64,000 nt of DNA from Pycnococcus provasolii (lineage: Eukaryota > Chlorophyta > Pseudoscourfieldiophyceae > Pseudoscourfieldiales > Pycnococcaceae), in the NCBI GenBank assembly GCA_938743325.2, contig OW568868.1, positions 806,001 through 870,000 of the forward strand. Direction: 5' to 3'. Position 1 is the stretch's first letter. Every line of letters starts with the position of its first letter. The notes under the pieces were generated by a model. It saw nothing but the letters and a program-made list of their open reading frames with translations, was not told the origin of the DNA and ran no database searches. The translations under genes were made by a program, and so were the position numbers. Positions 9,549 to 54,047 of the stretch are shown here, in pieces.

Positions 9549-9569
9549 AACCCTAACCCTAACCCTAAT
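9549..9569 (-). repeat. short telomere-type array (CCCTAA)
   Basis: Three and a half CCCTAA units, in a head-to-head promoter just upstream of the AccA-like start. The opposite orientation appears about 80 bases on. Confidence 0.9.
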
Positions 9570-9644: not shown

Positions 9645-9691
9645 GTGTTAGGGTTAGGGTGTTAGGGTGTTAGGGTTAGGGTGTTAGGGTT
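9645..9691 (+). repeat. degenerate telomere-type array (TTAGGG with GTG spacers)
   Basis: Seven TTAGGG units, several separated by GTG rather than joined head to tail. It lies between the divergent AccA-like and exonuclease genes. The mixed spacing suggests age or slippage after insertion. Confidence 0.85.
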
Positions 9692-15606: not shown

Positions 15607-15962
15607 GAGGCCGCGGTGGTTTCCTTTTCAGTTTTGTGCTTGAAGAATTGTTCTCTTGCACAGTTGATGTCCGCACCTTAAGATACACTGGGAGAGAGAT
15701 CTCGTGTAGTGTGCTGGGTGAGAGTGTGAGTGCTGGGTCATATATATATATAGATAGATAGCGCGCAGTCGAGCGAGCTCACGAGCACCGGCCGGCGCGC
15801 GGCCCGCACCTCCGAGGCGTCCGCTACCCGCCCGCCCAGAGAAAACTCACTTAGCTCGCAGATCACGTTCCCGCGCCGGTTGCGCCCGTCGACTCGTGCA
15901 GCGCGGTGCCGAGCGCGGAAGCCTGCTCGCCCTTCGCGCGCCACATCTGCAGGGACAATATA

Positions 15963-18900
15963 ATGTCCTCGGAGCAGCACGTGAACTTCGACGACGGGGA
16001 AGTGGGCGGGGAGACGGAGGTCATCAACAGTAAGACGGCGCTCGAGAGAGCCAAGTCCCTTCGACTCTTCGTGCCAGTTCAGGTGGACGCGCAACTCAAG
16101 CAAGCGGGGGAGAAGGCGGTCTCGGACAGCGAACACCCGCTCGTGTGCATAAGGCGTGGGTGTGTGCTCATCGCTGACGTCAGCGGCTTCACACCTCTCG
16201 AAGTCAAGCTCAACCGAGTCGGACGCGCTGGCATCGAGCAATTTGCGGACATTATGCAGCGAGTCTTCGAAATGCTTTGCAACATCACCTCCGATGCAGG
16301 TGGAACGGTCCTCGAGTTTGCTGGCGATGCGCTCTTCTGCTTCTTCGAGAGCGAGCACAACACACCGGAGTCTGACGTCGACGCTATCGTGGCTGCGAGA
16401 AGGTGCGCGGCTCTCATGCTGCGGGAAATGCGTGACTTCCCTGACCTGCGGCTGCACGGTGGGGCAGCCACGGGAACCATCAAGTTTGTGCACGTGCTAG
16501 CAGCGAAAGAGGAGAATGACGAAAGGAATGTCGCCGGTTGGAATTCTTTTAGCAACGTCAACAACGGGGGCCTGGGGTTGCTTTGGCAGCGCCGGTGCAT
16601 ATGCATGGGCGAGGCACTCGTTAAAGCAACGGAGCTGCTCGACGCGTCGCAGAAGGGCGAGATCTTGTTCGAGGGCGGCGAACGGGTCGTGGATGTGGGA
16701 AAAGACCTTGCATCCGGCTCCAGCACTGACTCCGAGGGCGAGAACGACGGCGCGGCAAGGTCGTCAGCGGACGATGGCCGCGCGTCTGCGAATCCGTCCA
16801 CGAGCTTAGATTACAGGAGGAGTGTGGATGACGTGAACACTCCTTCTAAGATGGCTGCGGAAAACTGGTGGAAGGCGAGGCAGTGGACCAAGACGCGCTT
16901 GCGGTGTCAGAAAAGCTGGGAATTCGTCAAGAGAGATCTCGAGGGAAGCGGCGTGGCGTTCTTCCGCAACATCTTCGAAGCTGCACCAGGCGTGCTCAAT
17001 CTCTTCTCGTTCGCGCACATCTCTCCGCCGGAGCTGTACGAGTCGCCCGAGCTCAAGCAGCACGGTGTGAAGGTGCTGAGCACCGTGGGCACCGCCGTTG
17101 CCGGGCTCAACGACATAAACAAGCTCGTCCCAATCTTGCACTCTCTCGGCGATCGACACCGAGATGTACACGGAGTCCTGCCGGAATATTACGGGGTTGT
17201 TGGCGCTGCGCTCATCAAGACACTTTCAGACGCGCTTGGCGACATCTTCACACCGGATGTCGAGGCTGCGTGGTTACACGTGTACAAGGTGGTGAGCGAA
17301 ACAATGACCCGAGCGGGCGAAGCGGAAGATGACTCGAACAGTGGTGGTACCAGCTACTCTCGAGCACTCAAAGACCCCAACGAAATGTTGAGACAGATAG
17401 CATCTTGGGAAAAGGATGCCTTAATGAGCTACCTCTCGAAAGAGATTGCTCACTACCTCTACAGCGGCAAGAAAGAGCTGTCACGCTTCTCGGAGATGCG
17501 CAGGATCGCAAGCGTATTCGTCTGCTTCCCGGAATTGACTGGAGGTGCTGCTGCAGCTCGGTTGGACACTGCGACGCTCAACAACTACTTTCGGCATAGC
17601 GTGATTCTCGTCGAAAAGCATGGTGGCATCATCAACCAATTTCTGTGGGATGACAAGGGCCTGATTCTGAAAGCTGCGTGGGGGATGTTCTTGCCCACAC
17701 CACACGATGAGCTGAACGCCGCACGCTTTGCAATGGAAATCACCGAGCTCTTTGGAGCACGCGCGGGTGTTGCATCAGGCATGGCGTTCTGTGGGCTCGT
17801 TGGTGCGGATGAGGTGCGCCTTGGACGCGTCATGTTCGGCGCCGAGTCGGTGACTTTGTCCGCTCGTCTCATGATGAAGGCTCAACCGTCGTCTGTGCTG
17901 TGCAGCGAAAGAGTGCGCGATGCGACATGGAGATTCATACACTACGAAGGGCAGGACGAGCCTTTGCTGCAGCTCAAGGGGCGTGACAAGAACGAGCCAG
18001 TATGCATCCCGAGATTTCTGAAGGATGGAACTTCGTCGCTTAGAGAAATTTCAAAATCTGAGATGGACAATCCAAGTCAGCAAGCGGCCAACACAGAAAA
18101 AGTTGTGAAGCACATGCCCTCATTGGTGAGAAATGAAACATCGACGCATGCGCTGCCAGATAATTCAGATGAGGACGAATGGGTGTACGCAAGAGAAAAT
18201 GAGGTGAGAGAAATCAGGAGCATGATCCTCAAGGCTGTTAGCAGCACGTCTCACGACGGCGGCTTCGCGGTCGTGGGCGAGCCTCATATGGGTAAGACAT
18301 CGATCGTTAAGGCGGCGCTTGAGCAGGCAGCGGCCAAGATGGGAGGCTCTGCAAATTGCGACATTCACTGGATCCTGTTGAATAAAGGCATGAAGACGGC
18401 GCACTTCAGCGCTGCGAAAAAGATCACGGGCGTAGTGAAGGGCACGGATGGAATGGAAAGGAGCTTTCGATCGTTGAAATTCCAGGCGAAAACGATGCCT
18501 CAGAGTCGTTTCAATTCCTTCACCAACGCGAGGCGCTTGGCGTTGCAGATTACAACCAGATCGAGTGCGGAAATGTCGAAGCTCTCGAGTATGGAATCTA
18601 ATCAAACTGGACCTTCGTTCACGGACATGGGCAACATACAAGAGGACGGAAGTGCCGAAGCGAACACTCTTGAGGTGACAAGTGACGGCCAATCTCAGCT
18701 AGGCCTCGCCCTGGCTTCTGCCTTTGAGATTGATCGGGTATCGATTTCGCCCAAGTCTGTGTCAAATACTCCGAAAGTGTCAAGTTCGAGTTCTATGCGG
18801 GACCATTTCAAGCCTGCAAACTCGATCGACATGCTCCAGGAGGCTAACACTTTGTTGATGCCAAAGGACAACATTCGAAGGGTTGTCGTTTTGCAGCAAG

Positions 18901-20117
18901 CGCAGTATATGGACCCTCAGAGCGCAAAACTAATCCGCATGGTTGAGCGGAATACGCGTGGAGTTTGCATCATCCACATCGTTGACTGGGATGTTGACAT
19001 GTCCTCACAGGATGATGGCGAACTCCCGGCTGTCCGGGTCTTTCCAATGACGCATGAGATGGCGATGAAGATGGTGGTCGAGATGCGCTATGGCAAAAAC
19101 CATGACCCAACGGAAGAGGAGCTGGATGAAGCGGACGATATTGCCAGGTTGAGCCACGGACACCCAGCTCAGGTGCGCATGTTCGTGCGCATGATGTCCA
19201 AGAGCGTGTCTGATGAATTCAAAAGCTCAGAAGAGTCGGCGAAGTGGACTCCTGGTCTGCTGCGCAAGAGTATCGTGCGTTTGGTTGATACACTGAATGC
19301 AAGGGATAATGAGGTGCTCAAGGCGGCGAGCTGCGCGGGCGATGTGGTGTCCCGCGAGGCGCTTCTGCGGGTGATGAACTATTCAAATGCAGAGCTGTCC
19401 AAGTCGCTGAACAATTTGGTGCGAACAGGATTGATAGCACCCATTCCAGAATTTTCAACGTCTTCGAATAAACATTTGACGAGGGTGGACAAATACAAAT
19501 GGGCGCACCCGGTGGGCCGTAAGGCAGTGCACGACTTAATGATGAAAAGCCAGGCGCTCGCCATCCACAGAATGTTTGCTGCAAATCTTGAGCTTGAAAT
19601 CTTGTCAAGTGACAGGGAAGCGACTATAGACCTACACACCATGCTAATTGAGCAATACACGGAAGCTGGGATGCCGCTAGAGGCTGCCGTACACGCCGCG
19701 GCTGTTGCGGCCATTCATATGGAGGAGAGTCAAATACTGGAGGCGTCAAAGTTCATCGAAAAGGCTTTGATGATAATTCGCGTCTTGCAAGGCTCACCCA
19801 GCATAGACTCGTACATTTCGAAGTGGTGCACAGACTTGGCTTGCATGCAGGTAATGATGACCGATTTTTCGGACGCAAAGGTCAACTCTGAAAGAGCCAA
19901 GGAGCTGAGCGCCAACGTGCTCGATCTAAGTAAGCGCCATCAAAAGTCGTGGTTCAATTGCTGCTGCGGTGGTGGAGGTGTATTTGACGAAGAGATACTG
20001 ATGGCGAGAGAACGGGCGAAGGAAGCGTCTGCGCGCGCAGATTCGGTGCTTGCCGAAGTGCAATTCGCAAGAAGTAGCAGGACTCCGAAAAGTATGGTAC
20101 GACTCAACTTCTTTTGA
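15963..20117 (+). CDS. Globin-containing soluble adenylyl-cyclase-like protein with NTPase module
   Basis: 1384 residues, no membrane segment. Order: cyclase half 1 (about 60-235) with both metal Asp in LIADVSGFT (Asp72) and VLEFAGDALF (Asp122). Then a complete globin (about 312-452): KSWEFVKRDLEGSGVAFF, LFSF, distal His367 in LKQHGVKVL, proximal His399 in LGDRHRDVHG, ending FTPDVEAAWLHVYKVV. Then cyclase half 2 (about 510-685) with GVASGMAFCGLVG and FGAESVTLSARLMM. Then a STAND/AAA-type NTPase with Walker A GEPHMGKT (772-779), a winged-helix-like part and a helical, TPR-like C-terminus with FNCCCGGGG that could be acylated. Apart from the globin this is the layout of animal/algal soluble adenylyl cyclase (ADCY10 type). 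Changes at the substrate site: the Lys before FAGD is Glu118, and the C2 Asn is Thr. Nucleotide choice and activity are open. Probably an O2/NO/CO-regulated cAMP or cGMP source. Confidence 0.9.
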   Translation: MSSEQHVNFDDGEVGGETEVINSKTALERAKSLRLFVPVQVDAQLKQAGEKAVSDSEHPLVCIRRGCVLIADVSGFTPLEVKLNRVGRAGIEQFADIMQRVFEMLCNITSDAGGTVLEFAGDALFCFFESEHNTPESDVDAIVAARRCAALMLREMRDFPDLRLHGGAATGTIKFVHVLAAKEENDERNVAGWNSFSNVNNGGLGLLWQRRCICMGEALVKATELLDASQKGEILFEGGERVVDVGKDLASGSSTDSEGENDGAARSSADDGRASANPSTSLDYRRSVDDVNTPSKMAAENWWKARQWTKTRLRCQKSWEFVKRDLEGSGVAFFRNIFEAAPGVLNLFSFAHISPPELYESPELKQHGVKVLSTVGTAVAGLNDINKLVPILHSLGDRHRDVHGVLPEYYGVVGAALIKTLSDALGDIFTPDVEAAWLHVYKVVSETMTRAGEAEDDSNSGGTSYSRALKDPNEMLRQIASWEKDALMSYLSKEIAHYLYSGKKELSRFSEMRRIASVFVCFPELTGGAAAARLDTATLNNYFRHSVILVEKHGGIINQFLWDDKGLILKAAWGMFLPTPHDELNAARFAMEITELFGARAGVASGMAFCGLVGADEVRLGRVMFGAESVTLSARLMMKAQPSSVLCSERVRDATWRFIHYEGQDEPLLQLKGRDKNEPVCIPRFLKDGTSSLREISKSEMDNPSQQAANTEKVVKHMPSLVRNETSTHALPDNSDEDEWVYARENEVREIRSMILKAVSSTSHDGGFAVVGEPHMGKTSIVKAALEQAAAKMGGSANCDIHWILLNKGMKTAHFSAAKKITGVVKGTDGMERSFRSLKFQAKTMPQSRFNSFTNARRLALQITTRSSAEMSKLSSMESNQTGPSFTDMGNIQEDGSAEANTLEVTSDGQSQLGLALASAFEIDRVSISPKSVSNTPKVSSSSSMRDHFKPANSIDMLQEANTLLMPKDNIRRVVVLQQAQYMDPQSAKLIRMVERNTRGVCIIHIVDWDVDMSSQDDGELPAVRVFPMTHEMAMKMVVEMRYGKNHDPTEEELDEADDIARLSHGHPAQVRMFVRMMSKSVSDEFKSSEESAKWTPGLLRKSIVRLVDTLNARDNEVLKAASCAGDVVSREALLRVMNYSNAELSKSLNNLVRTGLIAPIPEFSTSSNKHLTRVDKYKWAHPVGRKAVHDLMMKSQALAIHRMFAANLELEILSSDREATIDLHTMLIEQYTEAGMPLEAAVHAAAVAAIHMEESQILEASKFIEKALMIIRVLQGSPSIDSYISKWCTDLACMQVMMTDFSDAKVNSERAKELSANVLDLSKRHQKSWFNCCCGGGGVFDEEILMARERAKEASARADSVLAEVQFARSSRTPKSMVRLNFF

Positions 20118-34325: not shown

Positions 34326-37148
34326 CTATCCCATCATCATACGAGCAATTTTGCCGTGCCACTCAATTCCGAGAACCATCACAGCAATGGAACCTATGAG
34401 CAGCAACAAGGGCTTACCGCCCGGCAGCCATGGCTTGTTGGTGAGGTCGGGAGAATTCTCCCAAAAATCTTTGCCCCTGACACTGCATGACTTTCGGCCG
34501 CGTCCCAGAATGCCGTTGTAACGCCCTGACCACACCATCAAGGCTGGCAAGATGCCAAACAGTATGAGACGGAATGACCCGGAAAACTCAAGAGCTGGGA
34601 GGAAGATTGTGGGGCACACCGACGCGACGATGAGCGGGCCCGTGAGCGCAGCCATGGTCGCGACGAGCCTTCTTGTCCACTTTTGCTTATTAGCAGCCGC
34701 CTCTTTTTCAGCTTTGGTGAGTGGAGCATCTGCCAACGCGTCGTCGTCCTCCTCCGAGTTCGTCGACGCATCCGTATCCGCATCATTCTCCTCCTCCTCA
34801 CCACTTTGCTTGTCATGATCCTTAGGTGGGAATAGGTCAAGGAGGAAGTCGATGAAGCCGAGCAGCACGCCGAGGAAGCTCGTAATGATCGCAAAGAGAC
34901 TGAAGGCGCGCACACACTCGTTTGCAAACGCCCCCGCCGTCTCCTTGAGCGCCTGCATCACCTGGTTGCCGCTCGCGGGTACGCCAGGCACGGCTGCCGC
35001 GGACAGGTCCACCGTGCCAAGGATGGCCATCTGCCACACGAGGTACATGGCAAGAGGTATACCCGAGCCGATCAGAATCGCGTACACGACGCGGCGTGCA
35101 GTTCCGAGGTAGCTGAGCATGCTTGGAACGATGTTGTGAAACGTCAGAGACACCACCATAATAGGAAGGCAGCTGACGGCGCTGCCCCAGTTCATGCGCA
35201 TCAGCAGGTCCGACCGAATGCTGCCCGCGGCGATGGCGACGAGCGTGACGTAGCACGCCATGGCAAAGAAGAGGCAGATGGAATTCACGATGTCGGTGGG
35301 CTCCGGGCCCGCATACACGAAAGCTCCGAAGAATGCCGTGAAGGTGGCGCAGCACGATGCGCCAATCCAAACCGCCTTGCTCTGCGCAACCGCAACGACG
35401 CCGGACAGCGTCGCGGCGAGCTCGCCGCCGAGCGCCGTGCTGCCGTAGCCTGCGACGGCAGCAACCACGCCGCGGCTCAGCGAGGCACCCTCCGCAATAT
35501 ACGCCGTCAGAGTCGCCATGTAGATGAAGAGGTACAACGCTGCGCAGATGAACTTCATCGGTCGTCCAAGCGTCTTGAGCGCCATGGTGGTCACATTCGA
35601 CTTTGGGCCGAACCACAGGCTCATCTCGAGCAGCAGTAACGCGGTGCAGTTCATGAACGCCCAAACGGCGACGAGAGCCACAGCGGATGGCACGAATCCT
35701 GCCGCCGCCGTCTTGACGGGAAGTGCGATGATCCCCGCGCCCACGGTTCCTCCCGCGATGAGAGCCGCGGCGCCAAAGACGCGCCCACTTGGCGCGAGGA
35801 TCGCCTTCGGCGTTGCCTCCGCCTCCGCCGCCGCGCGTTGCCGCTCTATGAGCGCCTGCTTCATCTGAGCGAGCGCACGGCTGGCAACCATCTGCGCGCC
35901 ATCTGCGCCAATGTCAAAGGCGTTGCTCAATCCACGGCCGTACACGCCGCCTCCCAGCTGCATGCACAGTTCGTGGCTTGCAATTAGGCGAACGCGCCGT
36001 CCTCCCGGCGTGTGCAGCACACGTCTCATGGCAAGAATTCGCTTCTTGAGGCGTCGCGACATGTTAAGAGGTGCTCCATCCTCCACACCACCGGTGGCTC
36101 CTGAGGTGGAGAGCACCTCATCGTCGAAGAGGTTCTCATCATCTTCTTCTTCTTCTTCTTCCTCCCCTTCCTCCAACTTCTCGTCGGCTATGCCAACGTC
36201 CACGACGACGTAGTCGCAGTTGTTCACCGCAGCTGTCGCCGCCTCCTGCAAGTTGTTCACAACACACCCAAGTATCCTCTTCTTGTTTTCCTGTTGAGCT
36301 TCGTCGTCCTGTTCATCGTACGACCCCTGCTGAGACCACGGCTCGTCGACGAACGAGCGCAGGAGCGGGAATGGCAGTGTCGGCTTTGCCGTTGGTATGT
36401 GCAGGCCATCCGCGCCTGTGAACCTCGCCGTTCCTAGTCGGCTCTCGACGAGAAAGTCGAGTCCCTCCTCTCTGCACATGGAGCTGAGTATCTTTGCACG
36501 TTTGAGGAACTCCGTGTCGGTGACTGGCGCATCCGCGAGCAGCACGTGCGTGAACCCGCGCGTTCGTCCCGTTCCCGTGATGTAGCTTTCCACCTCCTCG
36601 GAGAGCGGGTCGACGACGAGCATGAGCATGAGCGCCTGCGGCGTCGTGTTCTGCAGGACGAGCTCCGTATTTTTTTGCTTTTGCTGTTGTTCGTCGTCTG
36701 GCGCGGCGGATGACGACGACGTTGGCGTATCTTCGTCCGACGACGTCGTGGCTGTGGTGGCGGCGTTTCTTCGGTTTGTCGTCCCTTTGTGATGTTGTTG
36801 TCGTCCTTGTCGGCTTCTTCTCTGCGGGCTTCGAAGCTTCAGAGGTACTGGCGTGCTGGCACGTGATGAGAAAAGTGGCGTTTGCGACCCCGCCGACGAC
36901 GCCGCGTAAGTTGCCACCACAAAGAGTGCAGATTGTGGCGTAGCTTGCGACCCAACGGTAAGGCCTGCCGCCTTCCCCCAAAAAACGTCATGTCGAGATG
37001 TGCCATCGCGAGTAACGACACGAAGACGACGCACATATTGTAATTTTTGCAGCAAGCTTCTACAAGCATGAGTAGAAGGTGCCCGTACTACTGAGTTGTG
37101 CACCCCACTGAAACTGGGTGGTGTGGGCGCACCACATGACGTCGTCAT
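34326..37148 (-). CDS. ThiE/TenI-like domain fused to a tyrosine/tryptophan-permease domain
   Basis: 940 residues in one frame. After a 170-residue basic, Ser/Thr-rich N-terminus (likely plastid transit plus linker) comes a TIM-barrel part like thiamine-phosphate synthase or TenI: EEGLDFLVESRLGTARFTGADGLHIP, ILGCVVNNLQEAATAAVNNC, DYVVVDVG, IGADGAQMVASRALA. From about 450 it is an 11-helix aromatic amino-acid permease (HAAAP type): GRVFGAAALIAGGTVGAGII, WAFMNCTALLLLEMSLWFG, PIMVVSLTFHNIVPSMLSYL. Plants and algae have plastid permeases of this type, but I know of no ThiE fusion. The TIM part has an acidic loop (EEEEEEEDDE) and may not be catalytic. A plastid-envelope aromatic amino-acid carrier is the best guess. 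Confidence 0.85.
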   Translation of the reverse strand: MTTSCGAPTPPSFSGVHNSVVRAPSTHACRSLLQKLQYVRRLRVVTRDGTSRHDVFWGKAAGLTVGSQATPQSALFVVATYAASSAGSQTPLFSSRASTPVPLKLRSPQRRSRQGRQQHHKGTTNRRNAATTATTSSDEDTPTSSSSAAPDDEQQQKQKNTELVLQNTTPQALMLMLVVDPLSEEVESYITGTGRTRGFTHVLLADAPVTDTEFLKRAKILSSMCREEGLDFLVESRLGTARFTGADGLHIPTAKPTLPFPLLRSFVDEPWSQQGSYDEQDDEAQQENKKRILGCVVNNLQEAATAAVNNCDYVVVDVGIADEKLEEGEEEEEEEDDENLFDDEVLSTSGATGGVEDGAPLNMSRRLKKRILAMRRVLHTPGGRRVRLIASHELCMQLGGGVYGRGLSNAFDIGADGAQMVASRALAQMKQALIERQRAAAEAEATPKAILAPSGRVFGAAALIAGGTVGAGIIALPVKTAAAGFVPSAVALVAVWAFMNCTALLLLEMSLWFGPKSNVTTMALKTLGRPMKFICAALYLFIYMATLTAYIAEGASLSRGVVAAVAGYGSTALGGELAATLSGVVAVAQSKAVWIGASCCATFTAFFGAFVYAGPEPTDIVNSICLFFAMACYVTLVAIAAGSIRSDLLMRMNWGSAVSCLPIMVVSLTFHNIVPSMLSYLGTARRVVYAILIGSGIPLAMYLVWQMAILGTVDLSAAAVPGVPASGNQVMQALKETAGAFANECVRAFSLFAIITSFLGVLLGFIDFLLDLFPPKDHDKQSGEEEENDADTDASTNSEEDDDALADAPLTKAEKEAAANKQKWTRRLVATMAALTGPLIVASVCPTIFLPALEFSGSFRLILFGILPALMVWSGRYNGILGRGRKSCSVRGKDFWENSPDLTNKPWLPGGKPLLLLIGSIAVMVLGIEWHGKIARMMMG

Positions 37149-49680: not shown

Positions 49681-50381
49681 GATGAAGCGAGCGATGGGAA
49701 ATTGGGGAAGGGGAACACGACAATACGACAACGACAGGTGGTCACTGGTCAGGCCCGACCCGAGCGAGACGAGGGCGAGGGCGAGGGTACTTCGAGGTTA
49801 GGCCGAGGTGGAGTTGAGGTGAGGTCGCTCGACGAGTTCGTTCGGGTCCCCCGACTTCCCAACGAGGAACTGGATTCCAGAGCGACATTAATTAAGGTAG
49901 GTCGATCCCCTTACATAATACTTCCGCGGGTAGGTAAAGTTTAAGGTGAACTTTGTCGACGGTCTCCCCCCTCCTATTCTTACCTTACATACCTCTCTCA
50001 AAAGAATGCAATACCAATTGGACTTCACACATGAACGACTGAACATGAACATGACGACACAAATTGAGAGACACAAAAGAGAGACGCGAACGAGAGGTTA
50101 TAATTAGTGAGTTACCTAAACTTTACCTTAAGCCTTAAGGGGACAGATAAGGGGACTGCGTTAGGGTTAGGGTTAGGGTTAGGGTTAGGGTTAGGGTTAA
50201 AATTTAGGGGAGTGTTTAACCCGTGGATCTGGCGACACTTCTTTCTAATATGAGGATACCGGTTTGAGGTTTTATCCACTTCCTCGCCCCCCCTTCTTGT
50301 TGTCTCTCGGGTGTCAAGAGCCACGAAACCCACCCCCACGACCGCCCCTCTTCCCGGCCCATCCTCGGAGAAACACCAGCC
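49681..50381. promoter_or_regulatory. divergent promoter region with telomere-type array and TTTACC elements
   Basis: It separates the phosphatase (minus) and bL28 (plus) starts. It contains GGTAAAGTTTAAGG at 49933, CTAAACTTTACC at 50116, CTTAAGCCTTAAGG next to it, and the TTAGGG array. No gene is seen. Confidence 0.5.
50161..50200 (+). repeat. telomere-type (TTAGGG)6 array
   Basis: Six perfect TTAGGG units plus a partial, about 180 nt before the bL28 ATG. Confidence 0.95.
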
Positions 50382-51314: not shown

Positions 51315-53357
51315 CTATCTATCTGCGCCATCCTCAAGATTAAGAGAGATGGGCTGCAGCGGTTCCTCCTCCTCCGCTTCATCGCCGGACATGTCCTCGG
51401 GACCACCGCCAGCACCAGCAGCACCACCGCCACCACCATCTCCTCCTCCTCCTCCGCATAGCCTTCTGCTATCCGGATTCGAGCCGTCGCCAGCAGCATC
51501 CACGGCGATGTCCTCGCGGCACAATCCCTTCGGCCCGGCACCGCCAGGACACTGCGTCTCGTCGAGACAGCGCATGAAGCACTCTGTCGCACCACCTGCC
51601 AAAGCAAGCATGGGACTCGACGGCACGGCACGAACGGCGGACGGCAGACTCCGCAGAAGCTCGTTATGCGCTGGCTTGAGCGGCGACGAAGACTGGCTGG
51701 GTAGCGGCGGCGTCACCACCTGGCCCTCCTCCGGCGTTCCCGGCGTAGCGCCCACGTGCCTCACGCAGTATCCCCTACGTGGCACGGGGTATGGAATGCT
51801 GCCCTTCTCGCAGTGCGAGCCCTGTGCACAAACGCCGCGCGGGCAGACGCGGCTCAGCACGCATGGATGGCGAAACCTCAGGCGGCTTGCGCCGTAGTGA
51901 TGCACAAGCCGCTGGAGCAGCGGGAGCTCACCACCAGAGTCGCGCTTGAACTGCGTGTCGTTGGGTATCTCGTCATTGAAGTAGTGGTATGGGTAGTGGC
52001 CCTTCCATGTGCGCACGAAGCCGTACACGGTGACGGTGTCGCAAAGCAGAAGCGCGAGCTTGAGGCCGAAGAAGCCGTTCGTCGGCTGCTGCACGCGGTA
52101 CCACTCGATCATCGAGTCGTAGAAGCTCATGTCCAGTGCGTAGGTGCGCACGCCCGGATTCTTGCGCAGTAGGCTCACGAAGTACTTCATCACGTCGTCC
52201 GTCGTCACGTGCTGCAACACCATCTCCTCCTCCGTCTCACGGAATGCAAAGTGCATGCGATTCACCATGCGCACCGTCGTCTTGCTACCGACAAACTTCT
52301 CGAAGCCGATCGTCGGGGCGACGTTGAAGCGAAACACTGCGTCGTGCGCGTCGATTTCAGCACCAAATGGCTCGTTCAGGAGAATGCCTCCGCTTCCCAC
52401 CACCGCGCACGTCTTGTGGGCGATGGGTGCGAACGGGTCCTGCTCTGGCAGCAGATGCCTCAGCTCGGCCGTCACCTTTCCAAGGTCACGCAGCCGCGGC
52501 CGCGGCGTACGCAGGCTCTTGCGGTCCATCCACGGTGTCAGCAGCGGCTTGTGGGCTCCTGGAACGGTGTGCTGATTCATGGCAACCGCGCCTATGAATC
52601 GTCCATCCTCAGAGCGGTGCCACTGCTCCTGCCGCATCTGGTCGTGCAGCGCGAGGCGTATCCGCTGCTGCGGCCCGAGTTCCATGACTGCTCGCATGAG
52701 CTCCTGATCAAGCTCGCTCAGACTCGCAAGCTCATTCTGCAGTGCAGCCGCCTTGCGCGGATTCCCAGAGTGCAGCATCGCCTGCAGCGCCGTTCCGGAC
52801 AACTGCGCCGAGACGACGTCCGGCGCACGCTCGACGGGCGGACCCACGGGCGGCGGCGGCGCCAACTCGCCCCTGGCTGCGCGCTCCTGTGCCTTGCGTG
52901 CCCACTCTGCTGCTGCCGCAGCTGCGGCTGCAGTTGCTGCCGACGATCCAGTCGTCGCCTTGAGAGGCGTCGTCACGGCGCTGCGCACGACGACAGGTGC
53001 GGGAGTGGGAGTGGAGGTGGTGGTGACGGTGACGGTGACGGTGGTTCCGGCGACGGTGTTGGCGGGTTGGCTTGCAAAGCCGGTCCTTGCGTTTGGACCT
53101 GCGTCGCTGCCGCGGCCTCGTTCCGACCTGGTCACGACGGGTCTCGGCGCGAGTGCGTCGTGGTGATCGTGGCTGCGTAGTAGGTCCGTGAGCCTGTGGT
53201 CCTTGTGCTGCGGCAGCGCATCCGCGAGCAGGAGGTGCCTGGACGCGAACGGCACGATGCATAGGATGAGAAGGCCCAGAGCCGCCGCGACGACGGCTTG
53301 CGAGCAGCTGCGCGGCTGTGGCTGCAAGTCCGTGTCCTCTCCCGGCTTTTCGCCCAT
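51315..53357 (-). CDS. GT29 sialyltransferase-like glycosyltransferase
   Basis: 680 residues, type II membrane layout: a short cytosolic N-terminus, a membrane helix (VVAAALGLLILCIVPFASRH), a long Thr/Pro/Ala-rich stem, then the catalytic domain. The sialyl-motifs are visible: L motif TCAVVGSGGILLNEPFGAEI to AHDAVFRFNVAPT and VRMVN; S motif QPTNGFFGLKLALLLCDTVT then VYGF; and motifs III/VS around GHYPYHYFNDE and LLQRLVHHYG. A Cys-rich C-terminal extension (RFRHPCVLSRVCPRGVCAQG, ECFMRCLDETQCPGG) is not usual. GT29 enzymes move sialic acid from CMP donors. In prasinophyte-type algae the donor may be a Kdo-like acid instead. Confidence 0.9.
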   Translation of the reverse strand: MGEKPGEDTDLQPQPRSCSQAVVAAALGLLILCIVPFASRHLLLADALPQHKDHRLTDLLRSHDHHDALAPRPVVTRSERGRGSDAGPNARTGFASQPANTVAGTTVTVTVTTTSTPTPAPVVVRSAVTTPLKATTGSSAATAAAAAAAAEWARKAQERAARGELAPPPPVGPPVERAPDVVSAQLSGTALQAMLHSGNPRKAAALQNELASLSELDQELMRAVMELGPQQRIRLALHDQMRQEQWHRSEDGRFIGAVAMNQHTVPGAHKPLLTPWMDRKSLRTPRPRLRDLGKVTAELRHLLPEQDPFAPIAHKTCAVVGSGGILLNEPFGAEIDAHDAVFRFNVAPTIGFEKFVGSKTTVRMVNRMHFAFRETEEEMVLQHVTTDDVMKYFVSLLRKNPGVRTYALDMSFYDSMIEWYRVQQPTNGFFGLKLALLLCDTVTVYGFVRTWKGHYPYHYFNDEIPNDTQFKRDSGGELPLLQRLVHHYGASRLRFRHPCVLSRVCPRGVCAQGSHCEKGSIPYPVPRRGYCVRHVGATPGTPEEGQVVTPPLPSQSSSPLKPAHNELLRSLPSAVRAVPSSPMLALAGGATECFMRCLDETQCPGGAGPKGLCREDIAVDAAGDGSNPDSRRLCGGGGGDGGGGGAAGAGGGPEDMSGDEAEEEEPLQPISLNLEDGADR

Positions 53358-54047
53358 GGCTGGCTGGCAAGCTGGTCGATCGAGCTCAAGCGCGCGCGGC
53401 GAGACCCCTCTCCAGGGAATAAAGGAGAAGGGCGGTCCGAAGAGGCGTCCGAAGAGGGGGGAAGGATGAGAGCAAAATGGTCGGAATATGCGTGAAACCT
53501 CTCCCGAAATGACTATATAAAAAGACCAGAGAAGAGAACAATCGAAAAGCGAAATCACCAAGAAAACACACCAGTGTTAAGGGCATGAACCCTAACCCTA
53601 ACCCTAACCCTAACCCTAACCCTAACCCTAACCCTAACCGATGCCTGCCAGATGCGAAAATGGCTGAAATAATGATGCGTGATCGTTTGTAGGAAAATCA
53701 AACAGCTCCTCTCGCCCCACATCCCATCACACACCTCCAAGGGAGAGAGTTGGAATCCTCAATTGTCAATCCTCGGATCCGTTTGTAAACTTTACCGTGC
53801 CAGCGTGCCGTTTGTAAGAACTACAGTACGGTCTTGTACGGTCTTGTCGCATCGCGTCAACACTCGTCGTTCGTTCGTTCGTTCGTTCATCGTCTGGGAC
53901 TGGACCGTACTGGACCGGTATTACTGTAGGTAATAACCAGACTCAACAACCAACGCGAAGTGAGGCTCGAACTGAGCTCGAAGGGAAGTCGGGAAGACTG
54001 TGTCTCGGGAAAGAGTCCCCCCCCCGGCCCTTCTCGTCGCTCCTGTA
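53358..54047. other. divergent intergenic region with telomere-type array, up to the MITE
   Basis: It holds the CCCTAA array, GTAAACTTTACC at 53785, a (CGTT)n run near 53868-53886, and a poly-C tract at 54017. No gene is seen. Confidence 0.5.
53588..53639 (-). repeat. telomere-type (CCCTAA)8 array
   Basis: More than eight perfect CCCTAA units, the longest such array in the window, about 230 nt upstream of the sialyltransferase ATG. Confidence 0.97.

Follow-up and report, generated by a model that had tools for sequence, protein, structure and literature searches.

Domain order of the globin-containing cyclase

The window analyzed here is a 64,000-nucleotide stretch of contig OW568868.1 of the green alga Pycnococcus provasolii. 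It carries a gene whose product, called the window protein below, contains the first half (C1) of a soluble adenylyl cyclase (sAC)-like class III cyclase, a globin domain, the second cyclase half (C2) and a putative P-loop NTPase region, in that order and in one frame. The open frame spans 15906-20117 (+) and, translated from the ATG at 15963, encodes 1384 amino acids (aa) with no internal stop. The parts of the frame are as follows.

15963..20117 (+): whole coding frame, 1384 aa plus stop; the same frame is found in P0002, a protein from a separate contig
16140..16682 (+): cyclase half C1, residues 60-240; phmmer match to human sAC at 5.1e-5, and family alignment
16683..16889 (+): spacer ahead of the globin, residues 241-309, poorly conserved; 18-24% identity to six relatives
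16890..17327 (+): globin domain in the C1-C2 joint, residues 310-455; Pfam 6.1e-21, neuroglobin 1.1e-16
17328..17420 (+): spacer from globin to C2, residues 456-486, unconserved; identity of 0-14% across 21 columns
17421..18017 (+): cyclase half C2, residues 487-685; phmmer match to human sAC at 1e-5
18183..19232 (+): region resembling a P-loop NTPase (AAA_16/STAND-like), residues 741-1090 with approximate borders; AAA_16 3.1e-5, below cut-off, and Walker A
19233..20114 (+): C-terminal part resembling that of sAC-like proteins, residues 1091-1384; matched by BLASTP to P0003 at 1097-1212

The globin is the one confident Pfam domain of the window protein (PF00042, residues 332-448, E 6.1e-21, with 75.5 bits where the cut-off is 22), with AAA_16 and the C2 cyclase model both below their cut-offs. 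When the whole protein was compared with PDB sequences by phmmer, neuroglobin was matched over residues 316-454 (1.1e-16) and human sAC (ADCY10) in two stretches (3.5e-11). In single-sequence searches, residues 30-245 had sAC C1 as the best match (5.1e-5) and residues 480-690 had sAC C2 (1e-5). Two unlike class III halves are therefore present within one chain, each matched separately to its counterpart in human sAC. An earlier note, made from the DNA alone, had proposed an intronless frame with a globin between two cyclase halves; translation, Pfam and phmmer bear out this order, and the profile and neuroglobin matches identify the inserted part as a globin. The C1-globin-C2 architecture is real.

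A predicted neuroglobin-like haem pocket

The two predicted haem ligands of the globin, numbered correctly in the earlier note, are invariant among the eight members of the family described below.

17061..17063 (+): His367, distal (E7) haem ligand position; phmmer alignment to neuroglobin
17157..17159 (+): His399, proximal (F8) haem ligand position; phmmer alignment to neuroglobin

The whole putative pocket, Phe334, Phe348, His367, Val371 and His399 (F/F/H/V/H), is invariant in 8/8 members, and from the alignment with human neuroglobin we take these residues to occupy B10, CD1, E7, E11 and F8, respectively. The sequence marks of the 3/3 globin superfamily were present, namely the profile match, the proximal His, and Phe CD1 with the distal residue. 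Neuroglobin carries the same five-residue set, so bis-His hexacoordination is a fair guess for this globin. In the PDB phmmer search, the best solved relatives of the window globin were neuroglobins. With a family profile, the best solved matches were the bacterial 'hemoglobin-like flavoprotein' 3s1i, which is presumably HGbI, plant non-symbiotic haemoglobins and neuroglobins.

The joint globin defines a protein family

The same domain order was found beyond the window by protein searches. The separate contig encoding P0002 carries the same full-length frame with 15 substitutions, so the architecture is no assembly slip. A search with residues 1-760 against about 5.8 billion proteins gave at least 11 matches among the 8000 candidates scored, with a globin in P0002, P0003 and P0004; P0003 is 41% identical to the window protein and has the same domain order. 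Querying with the globin region of P0003 returned seven proteins, comprising P0003 and P0014-P0018, all with this order, together with P0013. A search with a family profile gave at least 16 proteins, of which P0002 and P0003 alone had a globin; P0014-P0018 were missed, probably because the number of candidates scored was limited to about 8000. The family census, at least eight members, is a lower bound, and the relatives come from environmental sequence. P0003 and P0014-P0018 share 30-35% identity with the window protein over the full length and 39-42% over residues 1-740. P0015 lacks the N-terminus. P0018 has no NTPase part, and the 28 aa inserted within its globin look like an unspliced intron.

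The globin lies between C1 and C2 in all eight members seen (8/8). In a 35-protein alignment, the interval corresponding to window residues 238-488 holds 232-287 residues in the eight globin members, compared with 29-107 in 22 relatives without a joint globin (rows P0025-P0028 and P0031, with 0-9 residues and not two-halved there, are left out). At 249 aa, the joint of the window protein is far longer than the usual sAC linker, as the earlier note had it. Table 1 of PMC12867704 gives joints of 34 aa for human sAC and 92 aa for Ap sAC.

Searches of other genomes relied on two short peptide patterns. With these, viral contigs gave 80 pattern matches and zero confirmed relatives, and prokaryote genomes gave 167 pattern matches that led to one relative, in Candidatus Kapaibacterium (L030), whose 414-codon match spans query residues 29-674 and so leaves no room for a globin. 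P0013, a metagenomic protein of 908 aa, has a different build, with four tandem globins followed by ankyrin repeats; its best local match to the P0003 joint globin is 48% identical.

The STAND-type NTPase named in the earlier note stood in part. Walker A (GEPHMGKT) is present at residue 772, and is intact in 6/7 members checked, being absent in P0018. The Walker B pair, however, is QQ in the window copy as opposed to DD in five relatives, and the AAA_16 match (E 3.1e-5, residues 741-802) is below cut-off in the window protein, although it is above cut-off in P0003, P0014 and P0016. The NTPase region of the window protein may bind nucleotide without hydrolyzing it.

The globin is conserved like the catalytic halves

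Comparisons between the window protein and six relatives showed identities of 38-43% in C1, 46-54% in the globin and 47-53% in C2. The globin was more conserved than C1 in all six relatives, and its identity was higher than that of C2 in four and lower in two. The 15 differences from P0002 are distributed in a similar manner: none falls in C1 (60-240), the globin (310-455) or C2 (487-685), and 12 are within residues 1032-1384. It is improbable that a globin preserved to much the same degree as C1 and C2 is debris.

Evolution of the joint globin

A tree was built from the C1 and C2 columns only, with the globin excluded, and included 28 of the 35 rows (P0002, P0025-P0029 and P0031 were dropped). 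The seven distinct globin members formed one clade (support 100/99). Its sister, again with support 100/99, was a paralogue encoded in the same genome, L020, whose C1-C2 joint measures 47 aa and contains no globin. The globin was probably inserted once into the joint and then kept, since an earlier gain followed by loss in L020 costs one extra step relative to a single gain on the globin branch. A tree of the globin domain itself had very long branches and did not show where the globin came from. The two sister paralogues share a genome and an active-site signature but differ in whether the joint holds a globin. They provide a clean natural experiment, by which the contribution of the C1-C2 linker to class III cyclases becomes directly testable.

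A globin is also attached to the sAC-like metagenomic protein P0004 (1251 aa), at the far C-terminus of a C1-C2-AAA_16 chain. P0004 groups with P0008 (83/84, both on long branches) outside the joint-globin clade, and so probably represents a second, independent globin-cyclase fusion. Another sAC-like paralogue in the tree, L021:1512-7244, has 675 residues in the C1 and C2 columns, compared with 303-420 in the other 27 rows, which amounts to approximately 300 extra residues in its cyclase region.

Cyclase active site and bicarbonate site

Alignment with human sAC located the following residues of the window protein. The roles of the human residues (metal, base, phosphate and bicarbonate site) are as given in PMC12867704 and PMC12250328.

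16176..16178 (+): Asp72, metal ligand (human Asp47); sAC alignment
16314..16316 (+): Glu118, at human bicarbonate-site Lys95; sAC alignment, role from PMC12867704
16326..16328 (+): Asp122, metal ligand (human Asp99); sAC alignment
17655..17657 (+): Lys565, base-recognizing Lys kept (human Lys334); sAC alignment
17829..17831 (+): Val623, at adenine-contacting Thr405; alignment, role from PMC12250328
17853..17855 (+): Thr631, at Asn412; family alignment
17865..17867 (+): Arg635, alpha-phosphate Arg kept (human Arg416); sAC alignment

The equivalents of Asp99, Lys334 and Arg416 are present in 8/8 members, and that of Asp47 in 7/7 rows reaching there. The window protein differs from human sAC at Lys95 (Glu118), Arg176 (Thr223), Lys144 (His165), Thr405 (Val623) and Asn412 (Thr631). 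The C2 change from Asn to Thr had been recognized correctly (N412 to T631) in the earlier note, which had also taken Glu118 to replace the substrate Lys; this is not so, because Glu118 aligns with Lys95 of the bicarbonate site and the base-recognizing Lys is kept as Lys565.

Three of these replacements form a signature shared by all eight members and L020. Glu at the place of Lys95 is otherwise absent (the other 26 rows have 21 Lys, 1 Arg, 1 His, 2 Gly and 1 Ser), as is Thr at the place of Asn412 (22 Asn, 1 Tyr, 1 Ala and 2 gaps). Val takes the place of Thr405 in the same nine proteins, and Thr405 is also missing from 14 of the 24 other rows that have a letter at this place. Glu118, Val623 and Thr631 are not an effect of the globin, because the globin-free sister L020 has them, and they carry no information on gas control; judging from the alignment, the signature either arose before the globin insertion or has no connection with it. 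A tie of Glu118 and Thr631 to the globin was therefore ruled out.

According to PMC12867704, bicarbonate sensitivity is lost when Lys95 or Arg176 is replaced, and Ap sAC and Ss sAC both depart from the human enzyme at one of these two residues. Both are replaced in the window protein, and therefore its cyclase should not respond to bicarbonate. Arg was found at the place of Arg176 in 0/31 rows with a letter, which, together with the Ap and Ss enzymes, indicates that Lys95 and Arg176 are not required in the wider family. By the same count, this branch may never have had a bicarbonate site, which weakened the proposal that an ancestral bicarbonate input gave way to the globin.

A possible mechanism and its alternatives

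We lean, with modest confidence, towards a soluble sAC-type nucleotidyl cyclase in which the neuroglobin/plant-haemoglobin-like globin in the C1-C2 joint serves as a regulatory haem domain, and its position suggests direct control by oxygen, nitric oxide (NO) or redox state. The globin would bind haem b, and in the resting state His367 would probably be on the iron, as in neuroglobin and plant class 1 haemoglobins. O2, NO, CO or a redox change of the iron would then displace His367 and shift the E and H helices. Because the two ends of the globin attach to C1 and C2, such a movement would be expected to alter the pairing of the halves and, in turn, the rate of cyclic AMP (or cyclic GMP) synthesis. 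A more specific proposal, which we hold only tentatively, is that the globin acts as a hinge that senses a diatomic gas or redox state and gates C1-C2 pairing from inside the linker. If true, green algae would have a route by which O2, NO or redox state acts directly on cyclic-nucleotide synthesis, and the C1-globin-C2 domain could be used as a genetically encoded cyclase that is switched by a gas or by redox.

Several observations weigh against a regulated cyclase of this kind. The Pfam cyclase model is below cut-off in the window protein, where it matches C2 only (E 0.038), and a five-member C1 profile ranks bacterial CyaB (1.8e-6) above sAC (3.7e-5). The cyclase assignment for this reason rests on the sAC matches, the family alignment and the C2 halves of P0017 (23.3 bits) and P0018 (22.7 bits), which exceed the Pfam cut-off of 21.9. 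The changes from Thr405 to Val and Asn412 to Thr may alter catalysis or substrate. The spacers flanking the globin are unconserved (18-24% identity to the six relatives before it, 0-14% after it). The spacer from globin to C2 is longer in the window protein, with four Gly/Pro in 41 aa, than in the six relatives, with 1-2 Gly/Pro in 35 aa. There may be a rigid helical lever in the relatives and a looser connection in the window protein, and the unconserved spacers and four Gly/Pro argue against rigid mechanical coupling, the simplest picture of the hinge. In addition, nitric oxide synthase (PF02898) was not found in a six-frame Pfam search of the genome, in which intron-split genes can be missed, so NO from that source is not evident.

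A sub-variant that overlaps with regulation by a haem domain, and that we consider somewhat unlikely, is that a bis-His globin senses the Fe(II)/Fe(III) redox state or haem loading and not a diatomic gas. Phe B10, His E7 and His F8, as placed by the neuroglobin alignment, are the set of neuroglobin, which is hexacoordinate with these residues. Hexacoordinate globins also bind O2, NO and CO, however, and sequence cannot separate redox or haem sensing from gas sensing.

A haem sensor with a weak or dead cyclase, whose halves pair and which signals via the NTPase or partners, appears unlikely to us. The replacements of Asn412 by Thr, Thr405 by Val and Lys144 by His are fixed in the eight members, and the window copy has lost the Walker B pair, as such a protein might show. 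Yet both metal Asp residues, the base Lys and the phosphate Arg are kept, C2 is conserved like the globin, and the globin-free sister keeps the same active-site pattern; Val at Thr405 is by itself weak evidence, because so many other rows also lack Thr405.

We regard as distinctly improbable that the cyclase is active and the globin is a passenger enzyme, for example an NO dioxygenase or a redox buffer, without gating. The pocket matches plant class 1 and neuroglobin types, for both of which NO chemistry has been described, and the long, unconserved spacers would suit a passenger. This is opposed by the absence of a reductase domain among the Pfam matches of the window protein and by the globin site kept between the halves in every member seen.

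A gene-model artefact, in which a globin exon is read through or spliced out, is very improbable: the two spacers hold 36 frame-keeping GT-AG pairs able, on paper, to excise the globin, but the domain order recurs in eight proteins, the globin is conserved at the domain level, its GC content at third codon positions (0.72) is close to that of C1 (0.71), and a GTAAG or GTGAG start is absent from all 13 GT sites considered.

Comparison with known systems

The window protein resembles sAC/ADCY10 (human 4CLF; bacterial class 3 cyclase/TPR) in that C1 and C2 lie in tandem in a single chain, with a putative P-loop NTPase region behind them, and in keeping the metal Asp pair, the base Lys and the phosphate Arg. 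It differs in the joint globin, in Glu/Thr at human Lys95/Arg176 and in Val/Thr at human Thr405/Asn412. For full-length human sAC, PMC12802110 gives a predicted C-terminal STAND/P-loop region and, citing Middelhaufe 2012, a haem domain that is likewise predicted and C-terminal, whereas the globin of the window protein is in the C1-C2 joint. P0004 likewise has a globin fused to a C1-C2-AAA_16 chain, and differs in the far C-terminal position of the globin, its joint of 58 aa, the presence of Lys and Asn where the window protein has Glu118 and Thr631, and its position outside the clade.

The nearest precedent is HemAC-Lm of Leishmania major, described in PMC4534343 as a soluble haem-containing adenylyl cyclase that makes cyclic AMP in response to O2. 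The window protein would likewise be a soluble haem adenylyl cyclase. The window globin is central and nearest to neuroglobin and plant types, and its cyclase consists of two unlike halves. HemAC-Lm, by contrast, is 'globin-coupled' by its paper's title and reportedly has an N-terminal sensor-type globin and a single cyclase domain. The earlier note had set the gene against bacterial globin-coupled sensors, correctly in that the globin is not N-terminal here, but had omitted HemAC-Lm, the O2-responsive Leishmania haem cyclase. In bacterial globin-coupled sensors, a globin is joined to an output domain (PMC7082302). The window protein is like them in having a globin as the putative input domain of a signalling enzyme, and unlike them in that this globin is found between C1 and C2 and not at the N-terminus. 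The globins of the bacterial sensors are N-terminal and of the S family. We know of no globin-coupled cyclase that gates from inside the linker; in those known to us, the globin precedes the output domain. Among the open-licence papers listed by the searches, none described a globin between C1 and C2 in its title, the opening of its abstract or the parts consulted. The C1-globin-C2 order is real, conserved and apparently undescribed, and appears to be a variant of globin-coupled cyclases on an sAC chassis.

Genome and window context

The genome (32.3 Mb, 46 contigs) has 19 Pfam cyclase stretches, the window gene not among them, and 11 phosphodiesterase stretches, which indicates that it holds other parts of a cyclic-nucleotide system. 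In the same six-frame search, the window globin was the only PF00042 match and truncated haemoglobin (PF01152) was not found, again with the limit that intron-split genes can be missed. One H-NOX protein was present (L029:1456-5574; G000:C26, near 423566), whose 1373-aa frame combines H-NOX, HNOBA, histidine kinase ATPase and receiver domains and represents a second haem sensor in this genome.

The window has 27 other frames of at least 350 aa, of which 19 were scanned together with one of 299 aa. Pfam matches were obtained for 13/20 (metabolic enzymes, MORN, SHIPPO, RRM, Rad51, WD40 and others) and none for 7/20, and by these matches 0/20 pointed to a gas pathway. At 34329-37148 (-), a thiamine monophosphate synthase-like stretch and a tryptophan/tyrosine permease share one frame, possibly a fusion or an annotation question. 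A sialyltransferase-family (GT29) protein is encoded at 51318-53561 (-), in a green alga.

The genome also contains 51 light-harvesting stretches, some of Lhca type as read from their translations. Pelagomonas was set aside as the source, because the light-harvesting proteins of that alga should belong to another type. Two clusters on C31 (G000:C31:133072-142609 and 360395-366434) each comprise six light-harvesting matches of equal score that lie in mixed orientation, and are apparently recent copies.

TTAGGG tracts are very frequent inside contigs, with 2837 forward and 2751 reverse occurrences genome-wide, where the reversed pattern gives 0 and 3. Those whose places were listed, all on contig C1, are spread along it. 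Within the window, such tracts occur at 9648, 9670, 15582, 15594 and 50161-50185 (+) and at 9551 and 53590-53626 (-), one of them lying about 370 bp upstream of the globin-cyclase gene. These internal tracts are possibly promoter elements.

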